This document shows positions 7,324 through 28,258 of a DNA stretch of 38,993 bases, piece by piece. The stretch lies in NCBI RefSeq assembly GCF_000421605.1, contig NZ_ATXI01000016.1, positions 1-38,993 on the forward strand, written 5' to 3'. This DNA is from Thermodesulfobacterium thermophilum DSM 1276. Its GTDB lineage: Bacteria > Desulfobacterota > Thermodesulfobacteria > Thermodesulfobacteriales > Thermodesulfobacteriaceae. The notes under the pieces were generated by a model. It was not told the origin of the DNA, did no database searches, and worked only from the letters and a program-made list of their open reading frames with translations. How positions within the stretch are numbered: the first letter of the stretch is position 1; each line of letters opens with the position of its first letter. Made by a program: the position numbers and the translations under genes.

Positions 7324-7631
7324 GCTTCCCTCAGGCTTTTTCTTAGCATACTAACCGTCGGAACTTTCACGAGCATGCCCTGCTCATCAATAAAGAACCT
7401 TCAACTAAAACCACCCATCTCAAGGGGCTGAAAGGTTTCTCCGTTTATGATTATGGTTGGAGAACCTTTAAACCCCCTCTTCTCAGCATCAACTGGGTCT
7501 AAAACCTCGATCTTTAGCTCAGCGGGGATCACTTCCATCTCAAGAGCTTCCTTCAAATTTCTTTCTACCTGCTCCTTTGTAGGACAATTCGGAGCAAAGT
7601 AGACCTCAACTTTTAGCCTTTTATCCTCCAT
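7296..7631 (-). CDS. Thioredoxin-fold protein, probable selenoprotein (UGA at codon 77)
   Basis: The frame starts with ATG at 7631 and encodes a small thioredoxin-like fold: a beta strand and APNCP (Cys15), then a helix, then GSPTIIINGE with the cis-proline-type SPT motif. A TGA at 7403-7401 interrupts it after MGGFS. The same frame continues as RFFIDEQGMLVKVP and a final amphipathic helix (LRKSLREAW) to a TAG at 7298-7296, giving 111 residues. Small thioredoxin-fold relatives I recall have a Cys-Arg at exactly this place and a VPP-x-x-L-I helix after it. A hairpin with a GG-starting loop lies 20 bases past the UGA, as bacterial SECIS elements do. Cys15 and Sec77 would be the redox pair. The gene overlaps the alaS 3' end by 11 bases. 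Confidence 0.75.
7371..7400 (-). promoter_or_regulatory. Candidate bacterial SECIS hairpin
   Basis: Immediately after the UGA (7403-7401) of the thioredoxin-fold gene, GAGCA (7385-7381) pairs perfectly with TGCTC (7375-7371) around the five-base loop GGGCA. Two further pairs (a U-G and an A-U) can extend the stem outward. The loop begins 20 bases after the UGA and opens with G residues. Known bacterial SECIS elements have a short loop with an early conserved G at a comparable distance, where SelB docks. Folding was done by eye only. Confidence 0.65.
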
Positions 7632-9756
7632 GGAGCACCTCCTCTAAGGCTTCAGATAACTTTTCTTTTAAGCTTTCCTCATCAATCTTCTCAAGAAGGG
7701 TCCCTTGAGCAAGCTCAGGTCTTCCCCCGCCTTTAAGACCAATCTTCTTTGAGAGGGCAAGAAAGATATCCTTGGCTGAAACCTTTGAGCTTAAATCTTT
7801 TGTTACCATGCAGATGGCTTGGATCTTTCCATCCTTTTCTGAGGCTAAAAAGATAACCCCTGAGCCAAGCTTTTGTTTTATAAAGTCTCCGCACTCCCTA
7901 AGCTCATCCATCTTTTCCACGGGCACATACCCAACAAAGAGCGAGATTTCTCCAACCTTTACCACAGAAGAAAGCTTCCTTGCCAACTCATCCCTTAAGT
8001 TTCCTCCCTTCCACCTCTTTAACTCTGCCTTAAGGTCTTCCATCTCCTTTAGGAGTTGCTCAACCCTCTTTTCCAGGTCCTGAGGGGATGTCTTAAGAAG
8101 GATTGTTAATCTTTCAAGCCTATCCTCAAGGTCTCTCACATACTGGTAAGCAAGGTCACCGCAGATGGCGGTAATCCTTCTTACTCCGCTTGCTACCGAG
8201 CCTTCGCTAATGACCTTGAAAAACCCGATATCTCCAGTTCTCTTAACATGCGTTCCTCCGCAGAATTCGCAAGAAACATCGTTAATCCTTACAACCCGCA
8301 CGATGTCGCCATACTTTTCCTCAAAAAAGGCAAGAGCTCCTAACTTTTCTGCCTCCTCACGGGGCATCCACTTCGTCTCAACCTCATAGTTTTCAAGGAT
8401 CCAGCGGTTAACGAGGTCCTCGACCTTCTTTAGCTCTTCCGGCTTTAGGGCTGAAAAATGGGTAAAGTCAAAGCGAAGCCTTCCCTCTTCAACCAAGGAA
8501 CCATACTGCCTCACATGAGAGCCAAGCACTTGCCTTAGGGCAGAATGCAAAAGATGCGTTGCGGTATGATGCCTCATGATGCGCCTTCTTCTTTCAACAT
8601 CTACCTTTAGCTCAACCTCATCGCCGACCTCAATCCTTCCTTCAAGGAGTTTTATCCGGTGAATGATAAGCTCTGATGCTTTTTCTGCATCCACAACTTG
8701 GGCTTTTCCTTTTTCTCCCACTACCAGCCCAACATCAGCAACCTGCCCACCACCTTCAGGATAAAAGGGAGTCTTATCCACAACGAGGATATCATCTATG
8801 AGGGCAAGGACCTTAGCCTTTGTGGAGAATTCTTCGTAGCCTACAAACTCTGTCTTCACTCCTTGGGAGATAAGCTCTTTTATGGCAGGGGGCAAGGTCT
8901 CTAAGGCTCCCTTCCAGGTTTGCCTGCTTTTCTCCCTTGCCTCTTCCCTAAGTCTTTCAAAGCCTTCAAGGTCTAAGCTAAACCCAAGGGGGAGCACATA
9001 GTCCCGCACTAAATCGTAAGGGAAGCCATAGGTATCGTAAAGCTTGAAAAGAAGCTCGGCGGGAATAGTCTGTGCTCCCTTTTCTTTCAATCTTTCAACC
9101 TCTTCTGCTAAGACTTCAAGTCCAGTGTTTAAGGTCTCTAAAAAGCGTTCTTCTTCATGCTTTAGCACCTTCTCAATCAAGGGGGCATTTTCTTTAATTT
9201 CAGGATAGATGTCTCCATACTCTTCTATAAGAGGTGGCAAAAGCTTGTAAAGGAAGGGCTCGTTTAGACCGAGGAGCTTTCCAAAGCGTTCAGCTCTACG
9301 GATAATCCTCCGAAGGACATAGCCACGCCCCTCGTTTGAGGGGATGATGCCCTCTGCGATGATGAAGGCTGAGGCTCTAAAATGGTCTGCGATCACTCGG
9401 AAGGCAACCTCAGTGTCCCCCACCATGTCATCCTGAGCCCCCTTTCTGTCATCCCGAGCGAAGCGAGGGACCCCCTCCTTAAGAGCTTTGCTCTCTTTAT
9501 AAGCTACTCCAGAGAGCTCAGAAATTTTTTGCATGAGCCCGGCAAAAAGGTCGGTGTCAAAGTTTGTTGGAACTCCTTGGACGACAGCGGTTATCCTTTC
9601 AAGCCCAATTCCCGTGTCTATGCAGGGCTTTGGAAGGGGGATAAGCTTTCCATCCTTTGTCCTTTCATACTGCATAAAGACAAGGTTCCAGACTTCTAAA
9701 AAGCGGTCGCAATCGCAACCAGGCTGGCAATCGGGCTTTTTCCTAAGACAAAACCT
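7621..9756 (-). pseudogene. alaS: Alanyl-tRNA synthetase lacking its N-terminal catalytic core
   Basis: From about codon 180 of a normal AlaRS onward the match is clear: RKKPDCQPGCDCDRF, WNLVFMQY, motif 3 DTGIGLERI, the editing-domain zinc residues in HHTATHLLH and CEFCGGTHV, a coiled coil, and the C-Ala domain ending in GGRPELAQG. The open frame has its first ATG at 9675, but homology extends in frame to 9756, where a TGA (9759-9757) closes it. Class II motifs 1 and 2, needed to activate alanine, are absent, since a usual AlaRS has roughly 870 residues. Upstream DNA is instead a cas6 fragment. A 684-residue product could at most edit mischarged tRNA. An in-frame repeat-derived insert lies near 9425-9478. 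Codon use is richer in G+C than in the adjoining blocks. Confidence 0.8.
9425..9478. repeat. Short interspersed palindromic-type repeat inside alaS
   Basis: Two related units, GTCATCCTGAG (9427-9437) and GTCATCCCGAG followed by CGAAGCGAGGGAC (9448-9471), match the widespread bacterial GTCATCCTGAGCGAAGCGA-type dispersed repeat. They lie in frame inside alaS and encode VPRFARDDRKGAQDDM, placed between the motif 3 region and the FRVIADHFRA motif, where ordinary AlaRS has only a short loop. Family membership is from recall; copy number elsewhere cannot be seen from this window. Confidence 0.6.
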
Positions 9757-16273: not shown

Positions 16274-18040
16274 ATGAAAAAAAGCTTAGACCCAAGAAAA
16301 CTTTCTACCTGGGAGATAGCCTATCAAGCCGAAAAAAATCTAAAAAAGATTTTTGAACTTGCAGAGGAAATAGGACTTCTTCCGGAAGAGTTAATACCTT
16401 ATGGTTATTACTTGGCTAAGGTCGACTATCAAAAGGTAATTCAAAGGTTAAAAACCAAACCTTACGGAAAATATATCGATGTTACCGCGATAGTACCTAC
16501 TCCTTTTGGAGAAGGAAAGACTACCACCACGATAGGACTTATTCAGGGACTTGCTAAAAAAGGAAAAAGGGTAAGTGGTGCTATAAGACAGCCCTCTTCA
16601 GGCCCAACTTTTAACCTAAAAGGAGGAGGCACTGGCGGTGGTTTATCTCAGGTATTACCTTTAGATAAAATTGCTTTAGGACTTACAGGAGACATAAACG
16701 CGGTGATGAATGCCCATAACCTTGCTATGGTAGCTCTTACCTCAAGACTTCATCATGAAGAAACTTATACTGACGAAGAGCTTTCAAAAATAGGGATTAA
16801 AAGGCTAAACATAGACCCTAAAAGAGTAGAATTTCCCTGGATAATAGATTTTTGTGCTCAAGCATTGAGAAAAGTTTTGATAGGATTGGGAAATAAAAAG
16901 AACGGTGTTTTGATGGAAAGCAAATTTTGGATAGCCCCAGCTTCAGAACTTATGGCCATTCTTTCTATTGCTAAAAATTTAAAAGACCTAAGAGAGAGGG
17001 TCGGAAAGATTGTAGTAGCCTATGATAAAAGGGGAAATCCTATTACTACCGAAGACCTTGAGGTAGCAGGTGCGATGACTGCCTGGTTGGTAGAAGCTCT
17101 TAACCCAACCCTTGCACAAACCATAGAAGGACAACCTGTTTTTATACACACCGGACCTTTTGCTAACATCGCCCTTGGCCAGTCTTCTATCATCGCAGAC
17201 TATTTAGGTCTAAAACTTTCCGAATATCATGTTACTGAGTCAGGATTTGGAGCAGAGATTGGCTATGAAAAATTTTGGAATATTAAGTGCAGGTTATCAG
17301 GTCTTATACCTCAGGCAGTAGTTTTGGTAACCACTTTAAGGGCCCTTAAGTACCATGGAGGAGCACCTCTTCCTAGGAAAAACCAGCCTCTTCCTTCAGA
17401 ATACCAAAGTTTAAGACCAGACCTGGTAGAAAAAGGTTGTGAACTTTTAGCCCATTGTATAGAGATTATCCAAAGAAGTGGAATTAATCCAGTGGTGTGT
17501 ATCAACCAGTTTATACATGATTTTAAAGAAGAAATAGAGGTGGTTAAAAGATTTTGTGAGGCCTTAGGGGTAACTGCGGTTTGTTCTAACCACTGGTTAA
17601 AAGGAGGAGAAGGAGCAGTAGAACTTGCTGAAGCGGTTATAGAGGCCTGTGAAAAACCGAATAGTTTTAACTTTCTTTACGACACAAAAAAGCCTCTTAA
17701 AGTTAAAATAGAAAAAATTGCAAAAGAAATCTATGGTGCAAAGGAGGTCTGCTTTACTACTTTAGCCAAAGAAAAATTGGAACAGCTTGAAAAAGAAGAC
17801 CTTACAGAATTTTTTGTTTGTATGGCTAAAACCAGCCTTTCTCTTTCAGATAACCCTACACTTAGAGGTGTTCCTAAAGATTGGGTTTTCAATGTAAAAG
17901 ATATCATGGTTTTTAGAGGAGCAAAGTTTGTTGTACCTGTTGCTGGTGAAATTAACCTTATGCCTGGTACAGTTTCTAATCCAGCTTTTCGCAAGATCGA
18001 TGTAGATTTGAAAACTGGCAAAATCATAGGTCTTGAATAA
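16274..18040 (+). CDS. fhs: Formate-tetrahydrofolate ligase
   Basis: This enzyme opens the methyl branch of the Wood-Ljungdahl pathway by joining formate to tetrahydrofolate with ATP. The P-loop-like signature TPFGEGKTTTTIGL lies at about residues 76-89, followed by RQPSSGPTFNLKGGG, TGDINAVMNAHN and the C-terminal GEINLMPG. The 588-residue length is slightly above the usual 555-560, because of a short N-terminal extension. The start ATG follows AAAGAGG. It heads the plus-strand cluster, with folD 12 bases downstream. Direction in the cell (fixation or oxidation) cannot be told from the sequence. Confidence 0.97.
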   Translation: MKKSLDPRKLSTWEIAYQAEKNLKKIFELAEEIGLLPEELIPYGYYLAKVDYQKVIQRLKTKPYGKYIDVTAIVPTPFGEGKTTTTIGLIQGLAKKGKRVSGAIRQPSSGPTFNLKGGGTGGGLSQVLPLDKIALGLTGDINAVMNAHNLAMVALTSRLHHEETYTDEELSKIGIKRLNIDPKRVEFPWIIDFCAQALRKVLIGLGNKKNGVLMESKFWIAPASELMAILSIAKNLKDLRERVGKIVVAYDKRGNPITTEDLEVAGAMTAWLVEALNPTLAQTIEGQPVFIHTGPFANIALGQSSIIADYLGLKLSEYHVTESGFGAEIGYEKFWNIKCRLSGLIPQAVVLVTTLRALKYHGGAPLPRKNQPLPSEYQSLRPDLVEKGCELLAHCIEIIQRSGINPVVCINQFIHDFKEEIEVVKRFCEALGVTAVCSNHWLKGGEGAVELAEAVIEACEKPNSFNFLYDTKKPLKVKIEKIAKEIYGAKEVCFTTLAKEKLEQLEKEDLTEFFVCMAKTSLSLSDNPTLRGVPKDWVFNVKDIMVFRGAKFVVPVAGEINLMPGTVSNPAFRKIDVDLKTGKIIGLE

Positions 18041-20466: not shown

Positions 20467-20481
20467 GGTTACGGAGGCTTG

Positions 20482-20817
20482 ATGAAAGGAAAAACTCTGA
20501 TGTTTGTTTGTAGAGAGCTTGGTTCAGAAGATGGGATTAAGGATAGAGAAGATATAGTTTTAAAGACCTTAGATTGTGCAGGAGATTTAACTGTTTTTGA
20601 GGTGCTGAAAGCTTTGGAAGAGGGTTTTCAGCAGGTTTTTGTGGTAGGGTGTAAAAAAGGAACGTGTAAAAGTAGGATCGGGAACTTAAGGGCAGAAAAA
20701 AGGATGGCTACGGTAAGAAGATATTTAGGAAAATGGGCTGAAGGATATAGACTGGAGATGGTTTATCTTAATAAAGAAAAAGGTCAAACTTTATTAGATC
20801 AGATTCTTAAAGCTTAA
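20482..20817 (+). CDS. MvhD/FlpD-like iron-sulfur protein (hydrogenase delta-type)
   Basis: The 111-residue protein resembles MvhD, the small [2Fe-2S] subunit that passes electrons between hydrogenase or other donors and heterodisulfide-reductase-like complexes. Retained features are LDCAGDLT, VVGCKKGTCKSR, the following ...GNLRAEKRM and the helical C-terminus. The usual N-terminal CxxC (CNWC-type) is replaced by VCRELGS, so cluster binding may be altered. I take ATG at 20482 with GGAGG four bases upstream rather than the TTG just before it. In acetogens with MetVF complexes an MvhD protein is encoded beside metV and metF, as here. Confidence 0.75.
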   Translation: MKGKTLMFVCRELGSEDGIKDREDIVLKTLDCAGDLTVFEVLKALEEGFQQVFVVGCKKGTCKSRIGNLRAEKRMATVRRYLGKWAEGYRLEMVYLNKEKGQTLLDQILKA

Positions 20818-20830
20818 CGGAGAAAAGGTT

Positions 20831-21499
20831 ATGGTAATTACAGAATTAAAACCTATAGAAAAGATTTGGCAAAACATAGCAGACTTTCGTAAGGTTCTGG
20901 TTTTAGGATGTAGGGGGTGTTCAGGGATTTGCTCAACTGGAGGAGATCGAGAGGTAAAGTTGCTGGTCTCGGCATTAAACCTTATAGCAGAAAACGAAGG
21001 GAAAAACTTTATTGCTCTCGGACAAACCCTTATTAGGCAGTGTGACCCTGTTGCTTTGAAGGTGTTGCCTGAGTTTCTTAAAGAGGTTGAAGCGGTAGTC
21101 AGTTTAGCTTGTGGAGTAGGGGTAAACTTGATAGCTGACCTTTATCCTGATTTAAAGGTTTATCCTGGAACAGATACTTTATTTATAGGAGCCCATGTTG
21201 GATTTGGTGTTTGGGAGGAGAAGTGTCGGGCTTGTGGGGATTGTTTTATCGATAAAACCGCAGGTCTTTGTCCTATAGCAAGGTGCCCAAAAGGTCTTTT
21301 AAACGGGCCTTGTGGAGGGTCTCAAACAGAAAGGTGTGAGGTGAACCCTGAAATACCCTGTGTTTGGTATGAAATTATCATCAGGCTTGAAAAAAGAGGA
21401 GAACTTGCAAGCCTTGATGAAATAATAGGTCCAAAGGATTGGAGATTAACCTTTGGCGAAGGCCCAAGAAAAAGACAAAGAGAAGACTTAACCTTTTAA
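20831..21499 (+). CDS. metV: MetV, zinc-containing partner of methylene-tetrahydrofolate reductase
   Basis: This is the MetV-type (MTHFR C-terminal) subunit that forms a complex with MetF for methylene-tetrahydrofolate reduction in acetogens and relatives. The N-terminal motif GCRGCSGICSTGG and the C-terminal cysteine-rich segment (CRACGDC, CPIARCPKG, NGPCGGS, CEVNPEIPC) are characteristic. The 222-residue length is normal. GGAGAAAAGG precedes the ATG. Its stop is 14 bases before the GTG of the metF-acsD fusion, so the partner is the next gene. No HdrA or RnfC2-like subunit is encoded beside it, so the electron donor is uncertain; the two upstream iron-sulfur proteins are candidates. Confidence 0.9.
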   Translation: MVITELKPIEKIWQNIADFRKVLVLGCRGCSGICSTGGDREVKLLVSALNLIAENEGKNFIALGQTLIRQCDPVALKVLPEFLKEVEAVVSLACGVGVNLIADLYPDLKVYPGTDTLFIGAHVGFGVWEEKCRACGDCFIDKTAGLCPIARCPKGLLNGPCGGSQTERCEVNPEIPCVWYEIIIRLEKRGELASLDEIIGPKDWRLTFGEGPRKRQREDLTF

Positions 21500-21513: not shown

Positions 21514-23706
21514 GTGAAATTTAGAAGCAATTTAGAAAGGGTTTTAAAGTCTGGTTATATGGCCATTACTTGTGAGCTTGCACCTCCGAAGCATGCAAGC
21601 CTTGAGCCGTTAAAAAAGAAAGCCCGCGTGCTTAAAGGTTATGTAGATGCTGCAAACATAACCGACTGTCAGGTTGCCATGGTAAGGCTTTCAAGCTTAG
21701 CTGGTTGTTTGGCTATTATGTTAGAGGGGATAGAACCTATCCTTCAGATGACCTGCCGAGATAGAAACCGCATAGCCATGCAGTCTGACCTTCTTGGGGC
21801 TTGGGCTTTAGGGATAAGAAATGTTTTTTGTACCACAGGAGACCATCCTACGTTTGGTGATCATCCTCAGGCTAAGCCTGTGTTTGATTTAGATTCTGTG
21901 CAACTGGTGGCTATGGTTAATCAACTTAAGCAAGGGAGGTTTTTAAACGGACAGGAGATAAAAGGAGAAAATCCTCGATTTTTTATCGGGGCAACAGAAA
22001 ATCCTTTTGCTGACCCTTCAGAGTATAGAGTAAGAAGACTTGCTAAAAAAATCAAAGCAGGGGCTGAGTTTATTCAAACTCAGCTGGTTTATGATGTAAC
22101 CAAGTTTAAGCAGTTCATGTATATCGCCCACAACGAAGGTCTTACAGAAAAGGCCTATATCTTAGCAGGAATAGTACCTCCCAAATCTTTTCGGATGATA
22201 GACTACATCAAAAGTCACCTGCCAGGTTCTTGTGTGCCTGAAGATCTGGTTAAAAGAATGCGCGAGGCTAAAGACCCTTTAGAAGAAGGTATAAAAATAG
22301 CTGTAGAACTGATAGAACAAATAAAAGAAATCCCTGGAGTAAAGGGATTTCATCTTATGGCTATAGGCTGGGAAGAATACCTTCCTGAAATTCTTAAAAA
22401 AACTGGCTTTTATCCTCGTCCATTTTCTCAAGATTTGTTACCAGAAGATACTAAGACCTTTTCTTTGAGAGAACAAGAAAAAAAGCACTTAGAAGAAGAA
22501 ATAAAAAATTTAAAAGAGCATCTTTTAAGACTTGAAAGTTTAATTACCGGAAAAAAAGAAATAAAAGAAGAAGATTCAGAAAAAGTCAGTATTACGATAG
22601 AGACACCAAAAGAAAAAACTACTGCAGTAGTAGAGGATCTTACAAAAACCTCTCCATCCTCCTTGGCACCTGCTAAAGAAGAAAGCCTGACAGGTGAAAA
22701 ATCCAGGCTAAAAGTTTTATATCGTAGCTTATCTGAAAGGGCTAAGGGTCTTCCAGAAGACCTTTATCGTGAACCTGCTTCTGGCAGGATTAGAGAGGTT
22801 GTTTTTGGAAAAGGCGATAAAGCGTTAAAAGTTGGAGGTGCTGAGGCCTTACCCTTTCACAGTTTTGAGGGTAGTTTAGGTCAACCTTTAAGGATAGCGA
22901 TGGAGGTGTTAGACGTTGTTCCTGAGGATTTTCCAGAGGTGCTTGCTAAATATTTTAAAGATGTGTGGGATGACCCTGGGTCCTGGGCTAAAAAATGTGT
23001 AGAAGAGTATGGGGCTGAGGCGATCGCTGTTTATTTGTTAGGGATAGACCCGAACTATTTAAATTTAGGGGCAGACCATGCCAAAAGGGTTATAGAAAAG
23101 GTTAAAAAAGCGGTAGATGTGCCTTTGATCATATGGGGGTGTGATAACGCCGAAAAAGACACCGAGGTGCTTAGAGAGGTGGCTGAGGTAATTAAGGATG
23201 ATAACATCCTTTTTGGCCCTATAGTTGAAGATAACTACCGTACTTTAGGGGCAGTAGCCTTAGGTTATCAACTGCCTGTGATAGCTCAAAGCCCTATAGA
23301 CGTTAACATAGCTAAACAGCTAAACATTTTGCTTGAAAATCTTGGAGTGCCTTTAGAAAAGATTATCATGGACCCTTCAGTAGGTGCCCTTGGGTATGGA
23401 CTTGAATATACCTATTCTGTGATGGAAAGGATAAGGCTTGCAGCCCTTTATTCTAACGACGTAAAACTGCAAAATCCCTTTATCTGCAACGTAGGTAGAG
23501 AGGTCTGGAAGACTAAAGAAACCAGTCTTCCTTCTGATGAATTCATGGGAGAGGCTGAGATGAGAGGGGTTATGATGGAGGTTATTACTGCCGTGTCCCT
23601 TGCGTTAGCAGGAGGCGAATTGTTTATTCTCAGGCATCCTAAGTCCTTAGAGTTGACTAAAAGGGTATTAAATCTTTTATGGACTTCAAGTGAACAAAAA
23701 CCGTAA
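21514..23706 (+). CDS. MetF-AcsD fusion: methylene-THF reductase joined to the corrinoid protein small subunit
   Basis: One uninterrupted frame of 730 codons encodes two Wood-Ljungdahl proteins. Residues about 1-300 are MetF, the flavin TIM barrel (CELAPPKH, TCRDRNRIAMQSDLLG, CTTGDHP, FIQTQLVYD, GIVPPKS). Residues about 319-347 form a charged coiled coil, and 348-412 a low-complexity linker. Residues about 415-725 are AcsD, the corrinoid iron-sulfur protein small subunit (LPFHSFEGSLGQP, EYGAEAIAVYLLG, DPSVGALGYGLEYTYSVMERIRL, LRHPKSLE). The frame is open further upstream, but GTG at 21514 with GAGGAG in front avoids overlap with metV. AcsB follows after 10 bases. The fusion would tether methyl-THF production to the methyl acceptor, an inference. 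No separate metF or acsD is in the window. Confidence 0.9.
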   Translation: MKFRSNLERVLKSGYMAITCELAPPKHASLEPLKKKARVLKGYVDAANITDCQVAMVRLSSLAGCLAIMLEGIEPILQMTCRDRNRIAMQSDLLGAWALGIRNVFCTTGDHPTFGDHPQAKPVFDLDSVQLVAMVNQLKQGRFLNGQEIKGENPRFFIGATENPFADPSEYRVRRLAKKIKAGAEFIQTQLVYDVTKFKQFMYIAHNEGLTEKAYILAGIVPPKSFRMIDYIKSHLPGSCVPEDLVKRMREAKDPLEEGIKIAVELIEQIKEIPGVKGFHLMAIGWEEYLPEILKKTGFYPRPFSQDLLPEDTKTFSLREQEKKHLEEEIKNLKEHLLRLESLITGKKEIKEEDSEKVSITIETPKEKTTAVVEDLTKTSPSSLAPAKEESLTGEKSRLKVLYRSLSERAKGLPEDLYREPASGRIREVVFGKGDKALKVGGAEALPFHSFEGSLGQPLRIAMEVLDVVPEDFPEVLAKYFKDVWDDPGSWAKKCVEEYGAEAIAVYLLGIDPNYLNLGADHAKRVIEKVKKAVDVPLIIWGCDNAEKDTEVLREVAEVIKDDNILFGPIVEDNYRTLGAVALGYQLPVIAQSPIDVNIAKQLNILLENLGVPLEKIIMDPSVGALGYGLEYTYSVMERIRLAALYSNDVKLQNPFICNVGREVWKTKETSLPSDEFMGEAEMRGVMMEVITAVSLALAGGELFILRHPKSLELTKRVLNLLWTSSEQKP

Positions 23707-23716
23707 GAGGTAAGTA

Positions 23717-25933
23717 ATGTCTAAAATAGTCTGTGAGTTGGGTATAAAAGGTTCCTATTTACTTTTTGAGAGGGCGTTAGAGGAATATGAACAGGCGGTA
23801 AAAACCTTTGGTAAAGAAAAACCCATAGGTTTCCCGAATACTGCTTATTTTTTACCCATAATCTATGCTATCTTAGGTTATCCGGTTAAAAAACTGGGGG
23901 ATTGTGGAGAGGTTTTAGAAGAAATAAAGAAGCTTTTACCTAAGGAGACTTCTTCTGAATTTTTTTACTGGGGCAAGGCCTTAGATGCAGGGTTGGTTGC
24001 GCTTTTTTCTGAAGAAATTATCGAGGCTATTAGATATCTAAAACAGCCGGACTTTTATTGTTATTCAGAAGACCCAGGGGAAGGGAAGCTTTGGCTTGGG
24101 GCGGCAGATGATGTTGTTTTTAGGAAAAGAGGGGTTGAGTTTGTAGATGGAACTGCTCCTGGTTTTGCGGCTATTCTTGGGACTCCTGAAGATATAGAAA
24201 GTGCAATCAACATAATAAGAGACCTTCAAGAAAAAAATCTGTATGTGTTTTTGCATGGAACAGGGCAAGGGGTGAGTTTGGCAGAAAGTCTTTTGCAACA
24301 AGGGGTTCAGCTTGGCTGGTCCACTCGACTGGTGCCCTTTGGGCCAGAGGTAACCTCAGTAGCCTTTGCCATAGGGTTTGCTTGTAGAGTGGCTATGTCT
24401 TTTGGAGGGGTAAAGCCAGGAGAAGGGCCTAAGAACCTTCTTTATAATAAGAACAGAACCTTTGCTTTTGCGTTGTCCTTTGGTGCTCCTTCTTTAGAGG
24501 TTGCAGCAACCGCACTTGGGGTCTTTAACTGGGGATGTCCAGTGATAACCGATGTAGAACTTCCTGAAATAAAGGTGCCAGGGGTATGTCTTTATGAACA
24601 TCTTGTCTCAAAAGTGCCCCTTGACAGGATGGTAGATACAGCTTTAGAGGTAAGAGGGCTTAAGATCACCTCGGTTAAGCTTGACATTCCTGTAGCTTAT
24701 GCCGCTTCTTTTGAGGGAGAAAGGGTTAGAAAGGAAGACCTCTATCTTGAATGTGGAGGAGGAAGGACCTTAGGGGTTGAGTTGCTGGTTTCAAGGCCTT
24801 TAGACGAAATAGAAGACGGAAAGATCGAGGTATTTGGTCCAGATATCCCAGACCTAAAAAAACTTGAAGAAAAAGGCCCTCCTTATAGATTGCCTTTAGC
24901 GGTGGTGGTTGAAGTAGCCGGGGCTAACATGCAAGAAGATTTTGAGCCTATCATAGAGAGACAGTTTCACTATTTTATAAACTATGCCCAGGGGATTATG
25001 CATGTAGGCCAAAGAAATCTGATGTGGCTTCGGATATCTAAGCAAGCTGTAGAAAAAGGGTTTACGTTTAAACATTTAGGATTAATCCTATATGCCAAGA
25101 TAAAGGAAAAGTTTAGTGCCATAGTAGATAAATTGCAGGTAAAAATCTACACCCAAGAATCTGAGGTTAAAAATGTGCTAGAGCAGGCTAAGGAGGTTTA
25201 TCGGGGTAGAGATGAGAGACTTTCAGGGTTGGTTGACGAAAAGGTGGATGTGTTTTATTCCTGTACGTTATGTCAGAGTTTTGCTCCATCTCATGTGTGT
25301 GTGATAACCCCTGAAAGGGTGGGTATGTGTGGGGCTTATAACTGGCTTGACGGAAAGGCGGGTTATGAGATCAATCCCACAGGTCCCAACCAACCTATTC
25401 CTAAAGGAGAATGCTTAGACCCGGTTCTTGGATATTTTTCAGGGGTAAACGAGTTTGTCAAAGAGGCTTCCCGTGGAAAAATAGAGAAAGTGGCGCTTTA
25501 TAGTATTATGAAAGACCCTATGACTGCCTGTGGATGTTTTGAGTGTATTGCTGCGGTACTTCCCGAGGTGAACGGGGTTATGGTGGTTAACCGGGATTAT
25601 ACAGGCCTTACCCCTACAGGCATGAAGTTTTCTACCATGGCAGGAATGGTAGGTGGTGGGGTACAAACACCAGGATTTTTAGGGGTGGCTAAACATTATA
25701 TCGTATCTCCTAAGTTTTTGATGGCTGAAGGTGGGATAAAAAGGCTTGTGTGGATGCCTAAAAGTTTAAAAGAGGAACTTAAGGATAAACTAAAAATCAT
25801 GGCAGAAAAGTTAGGAGTTCCTGATTTGATAGAAAAGATAGCAGACGAAACGATAGCTAACACAGAGGAAGAGATAAAAAAATGGGTAGAAAGGGTTAAC
25901 CATCCTGTTTTAACCCTTCCTCCTCTGATGTGA
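23717..25933 (+). CDS. acsB: Acetyl-CoA synthase (A-cluster subunit)
   Basis: AcsB joins the methyl group from the corrinoid protein with CO and CoA to acetyl-CoA. The 738-residue length fits the bacterial three-domain type. The A-cluster ligands are all present: C516, C519, C528 and C538 for the [4Fe-4S] unit, and C605-G606-C607 for the nickel sites, each ten residues later than in the Moorella enzyme (506, 509, 518, 528, 595-597). The N-terminal CODH-contacting domain is intact, so it should bind a CooS encoded elsewhere. It lies between metF-acsD and acsC. An AGAGG site precedes the ATG. Confidence is high. Confidence 0.97.
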   Translation: MSKIVCELGIKGSYLLFERALEEYEQAVKTFGKEKPIGFPNTAYFLPIIYAILGYPVKKLGDCGEVLEEIKKLLPKETSSEFFYWGKALDAGLVALFSEEIIEAIRYLKQPDFYCYSEDPGEGKLWLGAADDVVFRKRGVEFVDGTAPGFAAILGTPEDIESAINIIRDLQEKNLYVFLHGTGQGVSLAESLLQQGVQLGWSTRLVPFGPEVTSVAFAIGFACRVAMSFGGVKPGEGPKNLLYNKNRTFAFALSFGAPSLEVAATALGVFNWGCPVITDVELPEIKVPGVCLYEHLVSKVPLDRMVDTALEVRGLKITSVKLDIPVAYAASFEGERVRKEDLYLECGGGRTLGVELLVSRPLDEIEDGKIEVFGPDIPDLKKLEEKGPPYRLPLAVVVEVAGANMQEDFEPIIERQFHYFINYAQGIMHVGQRNLMWLRISKQAVEKGFTFKHLGLILYAKIKEKFSAIVDKLQVKIYTQESEVKNVLEQAKEVYRGRDERLSGLVDEKVDVFYSCTLCQSFAPSHVCVITPERVGMCGAYNWLDGKAGYEINPTGPNQPIPKGECLDPVLGYFSGVNEFVKEASRGKIEKVALYSIMKDPMTACGCFECIAAVLPEVNGVMVVNRDYTGLTPTGMKFSTMAGMVGGGVQTPGFLGVAKHYIVSPKFLMAEGGIKRLVWMPKSLKEELKDKLKIMAEKLGVPDLIEKIADETIANTEEEIKKWVERVNHPVLTLPPLM

Positions 25934-27361: not shown

Positions 27362-28258
27362 ATGAAGGAAAAAGTAGTTTGTGTAGGTGAAAGCATAAAT
27401 GTGATGTCTAAAACCATAGGCCCGGCTATAAAGGCAAGAGACCCAGAACCAATAAAAAGGATGGCAAGAGAGCAAAAGGAGTTAGGAGCTGACTATTTAG
27501 ACCTTAACATAGGACCAGCTAAAAAGGATGGGAAGGACCTTGCGGTTTGGATAGTAAGCTTGGTTGAGTCTGAGGTGGACCTTCCTGTATCCTTAGATAC
27601 TACCAATGAAGAGGCTATGGCTGCAGGACTTAAGGTTTCGAAAAAACCACAGAGGTTTTTGATGAATTCTATTTCTGCCCAAAAAGAAAGGATGGAAAAA
27701 CTCATCCCTCTTGCGGCAGAGGCTGGATGTGAGGTTGTAGCTCTTTTATGGGGAGACGAAGGATTACCAAGAGATGCAAACGAAAGGGCCTCTTTAGCCG
27801 TAGACCTTATCATGAAACTCAACGAGGCAGGGATCCCTAATGAAAAAATCTGGGTAGACCCAATCATCACCCCTATTACCTTAGGGGCAGACCAAATAGT
27901 TGAGGCTTTAAATTTTCTTTCGATGCTTCAAGACCTTGCTCCAGGGGCCAAAAGCATAGTAGGACTTTCTAACGTTTCTAACGGAATTAACCCTAAACTA
28001 AGACCTTACCTTAACCGAGTGCTTCTTATGATGCTTATGAAGTATGATCTTTATGCAGCCATCCTTAATGTCTATGATAGAGAGCTGGTAGAGATAGCTA
28101 AAGGCTTGCATCCAGATTGGGTAAACCTGGTAGGAAGGATTATGGATGGAGAAGAAATGGCCCCTAAGGATTTAACCCCCAAGGAAATGGAAATTTATAA
28201 AACTACGCAGGTGCTTCTTGGTAAAACCATCTTTTCGGAGTTTTGGTTAGAACTCTGA
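27362..28258 (+). CDS. acsE: Methyl-tetrahydrofolate:corrinoid iron-sulfur protein methyltransferase
   Basis: AcsE transfers the methyl group from methyl-tetrahydrofolate to the cobalt of AcsC. The pterin-binding barrel shows VGESINVMSKTIGPAI, GADYLDLNIGPAKK, LDTTNEEAM, LMNSISAQKERM, VDPIITPI and GLSNVSNGI in the expected order. At 298 residues it is about 35 longer than the Moorella enzyme, mostly at the C-terminus. GAGGAGGAAAG gives a strong ribosome site. Its stop overlaps the ATG of folE2 (TGATG), so the two are translationally coupled. Confidence 0.95.
   Translation: MKEKVVCVGESINVMSKTIGPAIKARDPEPIKRMAREQKELGADYLDLNIGPAKKDGKDLAVWIVSLVESEVDLPVSLDTTNEEAMAAGLKVSKKPQRFLMNSISAQKERMEKLIPLAAEAGCEVVALLWGDEGLPRDANERASLAVDLIMKLNEAGIPNEKIWVDPIITPITLGADQIVEALNFLSMLQDLAPGAKSIVGLSNVSNGINPKLRPYLNRVLLMMLMKYDLYAAILNVYDRELVEIAKGLHPDWVNLVGRIMDGEEMAPKDLTPKEMEIYKTTQVLLGKTIFSEFWLEL

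Follow-up and report, generated by a model that had tools for sequence, protein, structure and literature searches.

Structures are known of CODH/ACS with CFeSP and of CFeSP with AcsE; we know of no structure in which a methylene-THF reductase (MTHFR) is seen with CFeSP. The MetF subunit of the MetVF-type MTHFRs of acetogens (Clostridium ljungdahlii; MetFV-HdrABC-MvhD of Moorella thermoacetica) is a stand-alone protein, and known AcsD/CdhD subunits of CFeSP (Moorella 4djd_D, Carboxydothermus 2h9a_B, 9fzy_E) are stand-alone proteins of ~310-320 aa. In the locus described here, in contrast, MetF bears AcsD at its C-terminus, and AcsD is the C-terminal domain of a protein whose length is 730-1100 aa in the different carriers.

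The DNA analysed, hereafter the window, is a contig of 38,993 nucleotides from Thermodesulfobacterium thermophilum DSM 1276, a member of a thermophilic lineage of sulfate reducers. An earlier note, made from its sequence, had described an unbroken MetF-AcsD frame with a coiled coil and a flexible linker between the domains, had taken separate metF and acsD genes to be the rule in acetogens, had predicted a MetV-MetF-AcsD-AcsC-AcsB complex for tethered C1 transfer with AcsE acting in between, and knew of no description of the architecture.

The metF-acsD fusion gene

The gene and its parts are located as follows.

21514-23706 (+): metF-acsD fusion gene, 730 aa, GTG start; PF02219 and PF03599
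21500-21506 (+): ribosome-binding site AGAGGAG, read in the sequence 7 nt before the GTG
21514-22413 (+): MTHFR (MetF) domain, residues 1-300; PF02219, Foldseek match to the Thermus thermophilus MTHFR
22471-22548 (+): linker helix, residues 320-345; AlphaFold2 and periodicity test
22552-22713 (+): disordered K/E/S/T-rich linker, residues ~347-400; pLDDT ~30, dN/dS
22765-23682 (+): AcsD (CFeSP small subunit) domain, residues 418-723; PF03599, NF003376, 4djd_D

No stop codon was found between the GTG and the TAA. Residues 7-298 match positions 2-287 of the Pfam MTHFR profile PF02219 (E 9e-36), so that the barrel is complete, and residues 428-669 match PF03599 (CdhD, E 1e-44). The fusion protein also exceeds the model's own cut-off for NF003376 (NCBIfam, AcsD/delta subunit). 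In phmmer searches the AcsD part matched CFeSP small subunits (4djd_D, E 3e-79, residues 435-724; 2h9a_B, E 2e-77), and the matches of the MetF part to MTHFRs were weak but significant. AlphaFold2, run with 30 relatives, placed one TIM barrel at residues 1-298 and a second at ~400-727, with a helix (320-345) and then disorder (347-400) between them; the low pTM of the model (0.52) is expected for two bodies joined by a flexible tether. Foldseek assigned the AcsD part to 2h9a_B/4djd_D (E 1e-32, TMt 0.93 to 2h9a_B) and the MetF part to the T. thermophilus MTHFR (1v93/8eac, E ~1e-13). Residues E21, D110 and Q188/Q190 of MetF, which by alignment we take to correspond to Glu28, Asp120 and Gln183 of the E.coli enzyme, are identical throughout the 71 fused and 57 unfused proteins. 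The stretch 21514-23706 is one unbroken gene encoding an intact MetF and an intact AcsD, as the earlier note had it.

The same note had named a frameshift or a stop between the two domains as the point to check. The identical architecture in one open frame recurs in the complete single-contig genomes G013, G010, G017, G030 and G032 (the last of which we take to be Thermodesulfatator indicus) and in dozens of independent assemblies, which excludes an artefact in practice. The fusion is the only PF02219 protein of the window's genome, and it is therefore probably also the source of methyl-THF for other uses. AcsD is present as this C-terminal domain and not as a stand-alone protein, acsC being the second gene downstream.

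The surrounding gene cluster

The fusion gene lies in a cluster of the order fhs, folD, CODH-like/ferredoxin ORF, mvhD, metV, metF-acsD, acsB, acsC, acsE, folE2.

16274-18040 (+): fhs, formate-THF ligase; PF01268
18053-18958 (+): folD, methylene-THF dehydrogenase/cyclohydrolase; PF00763 and PF02882
19054-20466 (+): degenerate CODH-like protein with two C-terminal 4Fe-4S motifs; partial match to TIGR01702, E 2.6e-8
20479-20817 (+): mvhD/flpD-like electron-transfer subunit; PF02662, E 2e-13
20831-21499 (+): metV, zinc/Fe-S partner subunit of MetVF-type MTHFR; PF12225, E 3e-35
23717-25933 (+): acsB, acetyl-CoA synthase; NF040764, 1027 bits
25972-27330 (+): acsC, CFeSP large (corrinoid, 4Fe-4S) subunit; NF003195, 9fzy_F E 4e-126
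27362-28258 (+): acsE, methyl-THF:CFeSP methyltransferase; PF00809
28243-29049 (+): folE2, GTP cyclohydrolase (folate synthesis), end of the C1 cluster; PF02649

The arrangement metV-(metF-acsD)-acsB-acsC-acsE is constant across the window's order, Thermodesulfobacteriales. MetV, for which sequence search found no PDB relative, is encoded next to metF in the window and elsewhere in the genome in the fused Desulfobulbales. When AcsE was aligned to MeTr 2yci, the LDTTN, MNS, DP and SNVS motifs were found to be preserved. HdrA-like ORFs lie upstream in most of the order; in the window MvhD is present and the place of the HdrA-like genes is occupied by the 470-aa CODH-like ORF, which is devoid of the B/D- and C-cluster cysteine regions of CODH. 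This shrunken ORF is kept only in the window's genome (G000) and in G006, G010 and G013, with a dN/dS of 0.34-0.48.

The window's genome encodes a 647-aa CODH on contig C32. G013 and G010, the complete genomes closest to the window and from the same genus, keep the acetyl-CoA synthase operon with acsB, acsC, acsE and metF-acsD, but no gene for the catalytic subunit of CODH was found in them, only one for a 545-aa prismane/HCP-like protein. They may consequently make no acetyl-CoA from CO2, and the operon of this small lineage may have taken on another role, its part in acetyl-CoA synthesis being less certain.

Two features of the window lie outside the C1 cluster. At 7621-9717 (-), beside a type I restriction-modification system, there is a second copy of alaS without the first ~180-190 residues; the full gene is on contig C11, and the truncated copy is absent from G013, G006 and G010. 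The HsdR-like type I restriction subunit at 270-2936 carries an unusual insertion, a PF13620 carboxypeptidase-regulatory-like domain at residues 610-678.

Distribution of the fusion

The MetF-AcsD architecture was read in 71 loci. The 41 genomes sampled from the window's order were all searched and their loci read: both domains share one frame in 31, a contig end or a frame break in a MAG interrupts the locus in three (G015, G029, G040), and two adjacent genes are present in four (G003, G004, G008, G012). G004 is Thermodesulfobacterium geofontis OPF15; the Thermosulfurimonas dismutans S95 genome is G016 (locus L113). AcsD was not found in G007 and G011, which keep metV-metF, and G039 yielded only an unrelated second MTHFR. 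In G007 (L037) and G011 (L041) metV and a stand-alone metF adjoin folD or lie nearby, and nothing of the linker is left behind the MetF domain; no acs genes were found in this region, G011 being only 70% complete. Many genomes of the order also encode a distant second MTHFR, whose frame of ~520-650 aa includes a MetV-like (DUF5981) domain (e.g. G017:C1:1413030-1414463); it does not occur in the window's genome.

A scan of the phylum detected AcsD in 222 of 345 genomes. Outside the order, at least 20 genomes have AcsD in a frame of 868-1174 aa; all 13 of these frames that were read proved to be MetF-AcsD fusions, and Desulfurivibrio sp. AMeS2 (locus L138, G272/G376) was the fourteenth such genome. 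Carriers include Desulfurivibrio, Desulfocapsa, many Desulfobulbaceae assemblies and many other Desulfobacterota/Thermodesulfobacteriota families; the counts come from a sample of genomes and are minimum values outside the order. A lineage-specific oddity of one species was rejected as an explanation. The supposition that metF and acsD are separate in acetogens held, with no fusion in 64 AcsD-bearing Bacillota genomes, nor was one found in 15 from Planctomycetota and 26 from Chloroflexota: in all 105, AcsD lies in short frames (≤406 aa). In many other families of the window's phylum AcsD is 500-549 aa long owing to a C-terminal extension of ~200 aa; in the one protein checked, the extension gave no match to a Pfam domain.

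Origin and later split

In the AcsD tree all fused proteins group with the four split ones in a single clade (SH-aLRT 99 in the first tree; 100/99 for UFBoot/SH-aLRT in the careful one), and the label fused/unfused changes twice on this tree vs 20.7 times in shuffles. The MetF tree is compatible with one fused clade with weaker support (SH-aLRT 90), the 'unfused' rows inside it being split or WLP-losing genomes of the window's own genus or contig-end cuts (L121, L149, L171, L182). Placement of the split lineage outside the fused rows was rejected by the AU test (p-AU 0.0003), which rules out the split state as the ancestral one; several independent fusions are not supported, since fused AcsD is a single clade. 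The single clade, the split nested in it and the agreeing MetF tree argue for one fusion in an ancestor within the phylum, followed by one split, which belongs to the T. geofontis lineage of the window's genus.

The earlier note had reckoned with relatives that always have two genes; the outcome was the opposite, the fusion being ancestral in the order and the two-gene state derived. Its description of the fusion stood, but the scope it implied was too narrow for a phylum-scale feature of single origin. The split genes start at an ATG behind a ribosome-binding site of their own, and the frame is still shared by the two genes of G004 and of G012, with one or two stops between them. Separate metV-metF-acsD-acsB genes without a long linker occur in Candidatus Desulfaltia bathyphila (L175), an arrangement that is likely of the precursor type; in L154, too, metF and acsD lie side by side as separate genes with no long linker.

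The linker

The linkers of the fused proteins are 109-456 aa long, rich in E, K, A, P and V and almost free of Cys; with such varied length and sequence no precise geometry can be required. Their dN/dS is 0.31-0.32 vs 0.05-0.11 in both domains, which makes the linker the fastest-evolving part, yet the value is below 1, and the fusion has been kept under purifying selection. In the window the linker consists, much as had been suggested, of a helix and a flexible part: the 3.5-3.6 (heptad-like) periodicity of helix 320-345 was reached by 5 of 500 shuffles, and a disordered stretch follows.

A conserved 39-aa amphipathic helix was recognized in the linkers of the order. Its HMM matches these linkers except those of the window's own subclade, as well as the N-terminus of AcsD (E 1e-8 to 1e-12) and the N-terminus of the operon CODH (E 2e-7 to 2e-10) in the four split genomes; coiled-coil sequences are alike by composition, though the best E on shuffled linkers was 1.1 (20 shuffles per linker). 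The helix was not found on the CODHs examined in fused genomes. The helix-bearing operon CODHs (743-780 aa) are:

L042:3034-5367
L034:7991-10219
L038:8096-10435
L033:5819-8107

In the window's subclade the linker is shorter; a helix occupies the same position there, without recognizable sequence similarity. The HMM did not detect the window helix as the motif of the order, so that position is what speaks for their homology. Desulfobulbales and related thermophiles have a different conserved block of ~50 aa, ...EMNEKER.MALESV..GL.ALKKAYGLSDDQFEAL..FAGAEAIL.., whose model shows a helical hairpin and, after it, a helix of 62 residues, and the linkers of f2, f3 and the f31/f57/f80 group contain TPR repeats. 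The match between clade-1 and clade-2 linker helices in hhalign was weak (probability 32%).

Possible function

The fusion suggests that two pathway steps are physically tied. Our preferred reading of the domain content and gene order, in which we have some confidence, is a bifunctional Wood-Ljungdahl protein with methylene-THF reductase tethered to the small CFeSP subunit for co-assembly or tethered methyl transfer. The MetF end would pair with MetV and an electron supply of the MvhD/Hdr or ferredoxin type to produce methyl-THF, and the AcsD end with AcsC to make up CFeSP, so that each MTHFR would carry its own methyl acceptor on an arm. AcsE would transfer the methyl group from methyl-THF to the cobalt of CFeSP, from which AcsB would take it for acetyl-CoA. 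The arm, a helix or TPR repeats plus a flexible or long helical spacer, would allow CFeSP to move between AcsE and AcsB and would keep the last three proteins of the methyl branch together in a fixed ratio. Other proteins of the pathway probably also dock at the conserved linker helix.

Against tethering it must be said that methyl-THF still has to pass AcsE, a separate protein in most genomes, and that the split T. geofontis lineage does without the covalent link; T. geofontis needs CO2 for growth. Neither a full-length product nor a complex was found documented at the protein level. The pathway as such is operative in the order: Thermodesulfatator indicus fixes CO2 by the Wood-Ljungdahl pathway, as established by 13C tracing, and all enzymes were detected by proteomics (PMC12743299).

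Other fusions were encountered in the survey, AcsC-AcsE with K/E-rich linkers (G001, G004, G008) and AcsD-CODH of 1123-1150 aa with the CODH catalytic subunit at the C-terminus of AcsD (G066, G139, G340):

L031:9611-12061, AcsC-AcsE
L034:461-2863, AcsC-AcsE
L038:631-2958, AcsC-AcsE
L084:5315-8683, AcsD-CODH
L085:3925-7374, AcsD-CODH
L086:4390-7794, AcsD-CODH

Because these, too, join neighbouring steps, they favour a common assembly. A more speculative and rather doubtful extension is that the single ancestral fusion forms the backbone of a Wood-Ljungdahl metabolon with the linker helix as a portable docking element; after the T. geofontis split the AcsD helix and its copy on CODH would pair non-covalently and tie the carbonyl to the methyl branch.

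Adjacent metF and acsD genes could also have merged by stop loss, neutrally or with equal expression or folding as the only gain, the enzymes remaining independent. Such a merger would accommodate the unfused neighbours without a long linker in C. Desulfaltia bathyphila and L154, the four genomes that lost the covalent link and retained the pathway, and the fast evolution of the linker (dN/dS ~0.31). It is nevertheless unlikely in view of the one origin and the maintenance across many families with a linker dN/dS below 1, of the clade-specific conserved helix or TPR modules, and of the split lineage, which kept the helix and bears it on CODH as well. That the two proteins were joined by a sequencing or assembly fault has a negligible probability: nothing was found in its favour, and complete genomes and dozens of independent assemblies have the same frame.

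Two further accounts start from the linker. Its helix or TPR repeats might dock CODH/ACS or an electron-transfer partner and make the fused protein the hub of the whole pathway, as the 39-aa helix on both AcsD and CODH of the split genomes, the TPR repeats of the three groups and the Desulfobulbales block with its modelled hairpin and long helix would allow. We regard this as improbable, since the CODHs examined in fused genomes are without the helix, the window's own helix is unmatched by the HMM of the order, and coiled coils resemble each other by composition (shuffled decoys did not score, though). The polypeptide might instead be cut in its long, K/E-rich, disordered linker to release separate working proteins, which suffice in the split lineage; with no processing signal seen and linkers kept in hyperthermophiles, where exposed loops are costly, there is little to recommend this idea.

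Literature and annotation

No description of a MetF-AcsD fusion was found in the searchable literature (open text, with subscription papers and supplements outside reach), in agreement with the earlier note. It is not mentioned in the text of the genome papers on T. dismutans (PMC4911364), Dissulfurimicrobium (PMC8780430), Desulfurivibrio dismutans (PMC12142623), cable bacteria (PMC11247825) and Desulfobacterium autotrophicum (PMC2702500), or in that of a 2026 study of Wood-Ljungdahl evolution in Desulfobacterota (PMC12827605). The enzymes are known and the architecture is apparently new, an old fusion that seems to have gone undescribed. TDIS_1006 of Thermosulfurimonas dismutans, listed only as MTHFR in its naming paper, is by gene order the fusion. 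When BLAST hits to AcsD or MetF are filtered by coverage, proteins in which the two are fused can be misjudged. Whether the methyl group passes from methyl-THF to cobalt inside a physical complex is an open question of bacterial CO2 fixation on which the fusion bears; with a covalent link across many families and cultured carriers it is directly testable.

Comparison with known systems

With the MetVF-type MTHFRs of acetogens the locus shares the catalytic residues, MetV directly upstream of MetF, and upstream genes for MvhD-like and, in most of the order, HdrA-like proteins. In the window the degenerate CODH-like protein with ferredoxin motifs appears to stand in for the HdrABC of the Moorella type. 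With AcsD/CdhD of Moorella and Carboxydothermus it shares the whole TIM-barrel domain (~42% identity in the structural alignment) and the vicinity of AcsB/AcsC. MetH also combines, in one chain, a methyl-THF module and corrinoid-related modules on linkers, and its cobalt domain visits several sites, as CFeSP would; it differs in that the joined module is a methyltransferase (MeTr-like) and not an MTHFR, and the linkers are not homologous. The AcsC-AcsE and AcsD-CODH fusions likewise connect neighbouring steps by K/E-rich linkers, with other partners and in few genomes.
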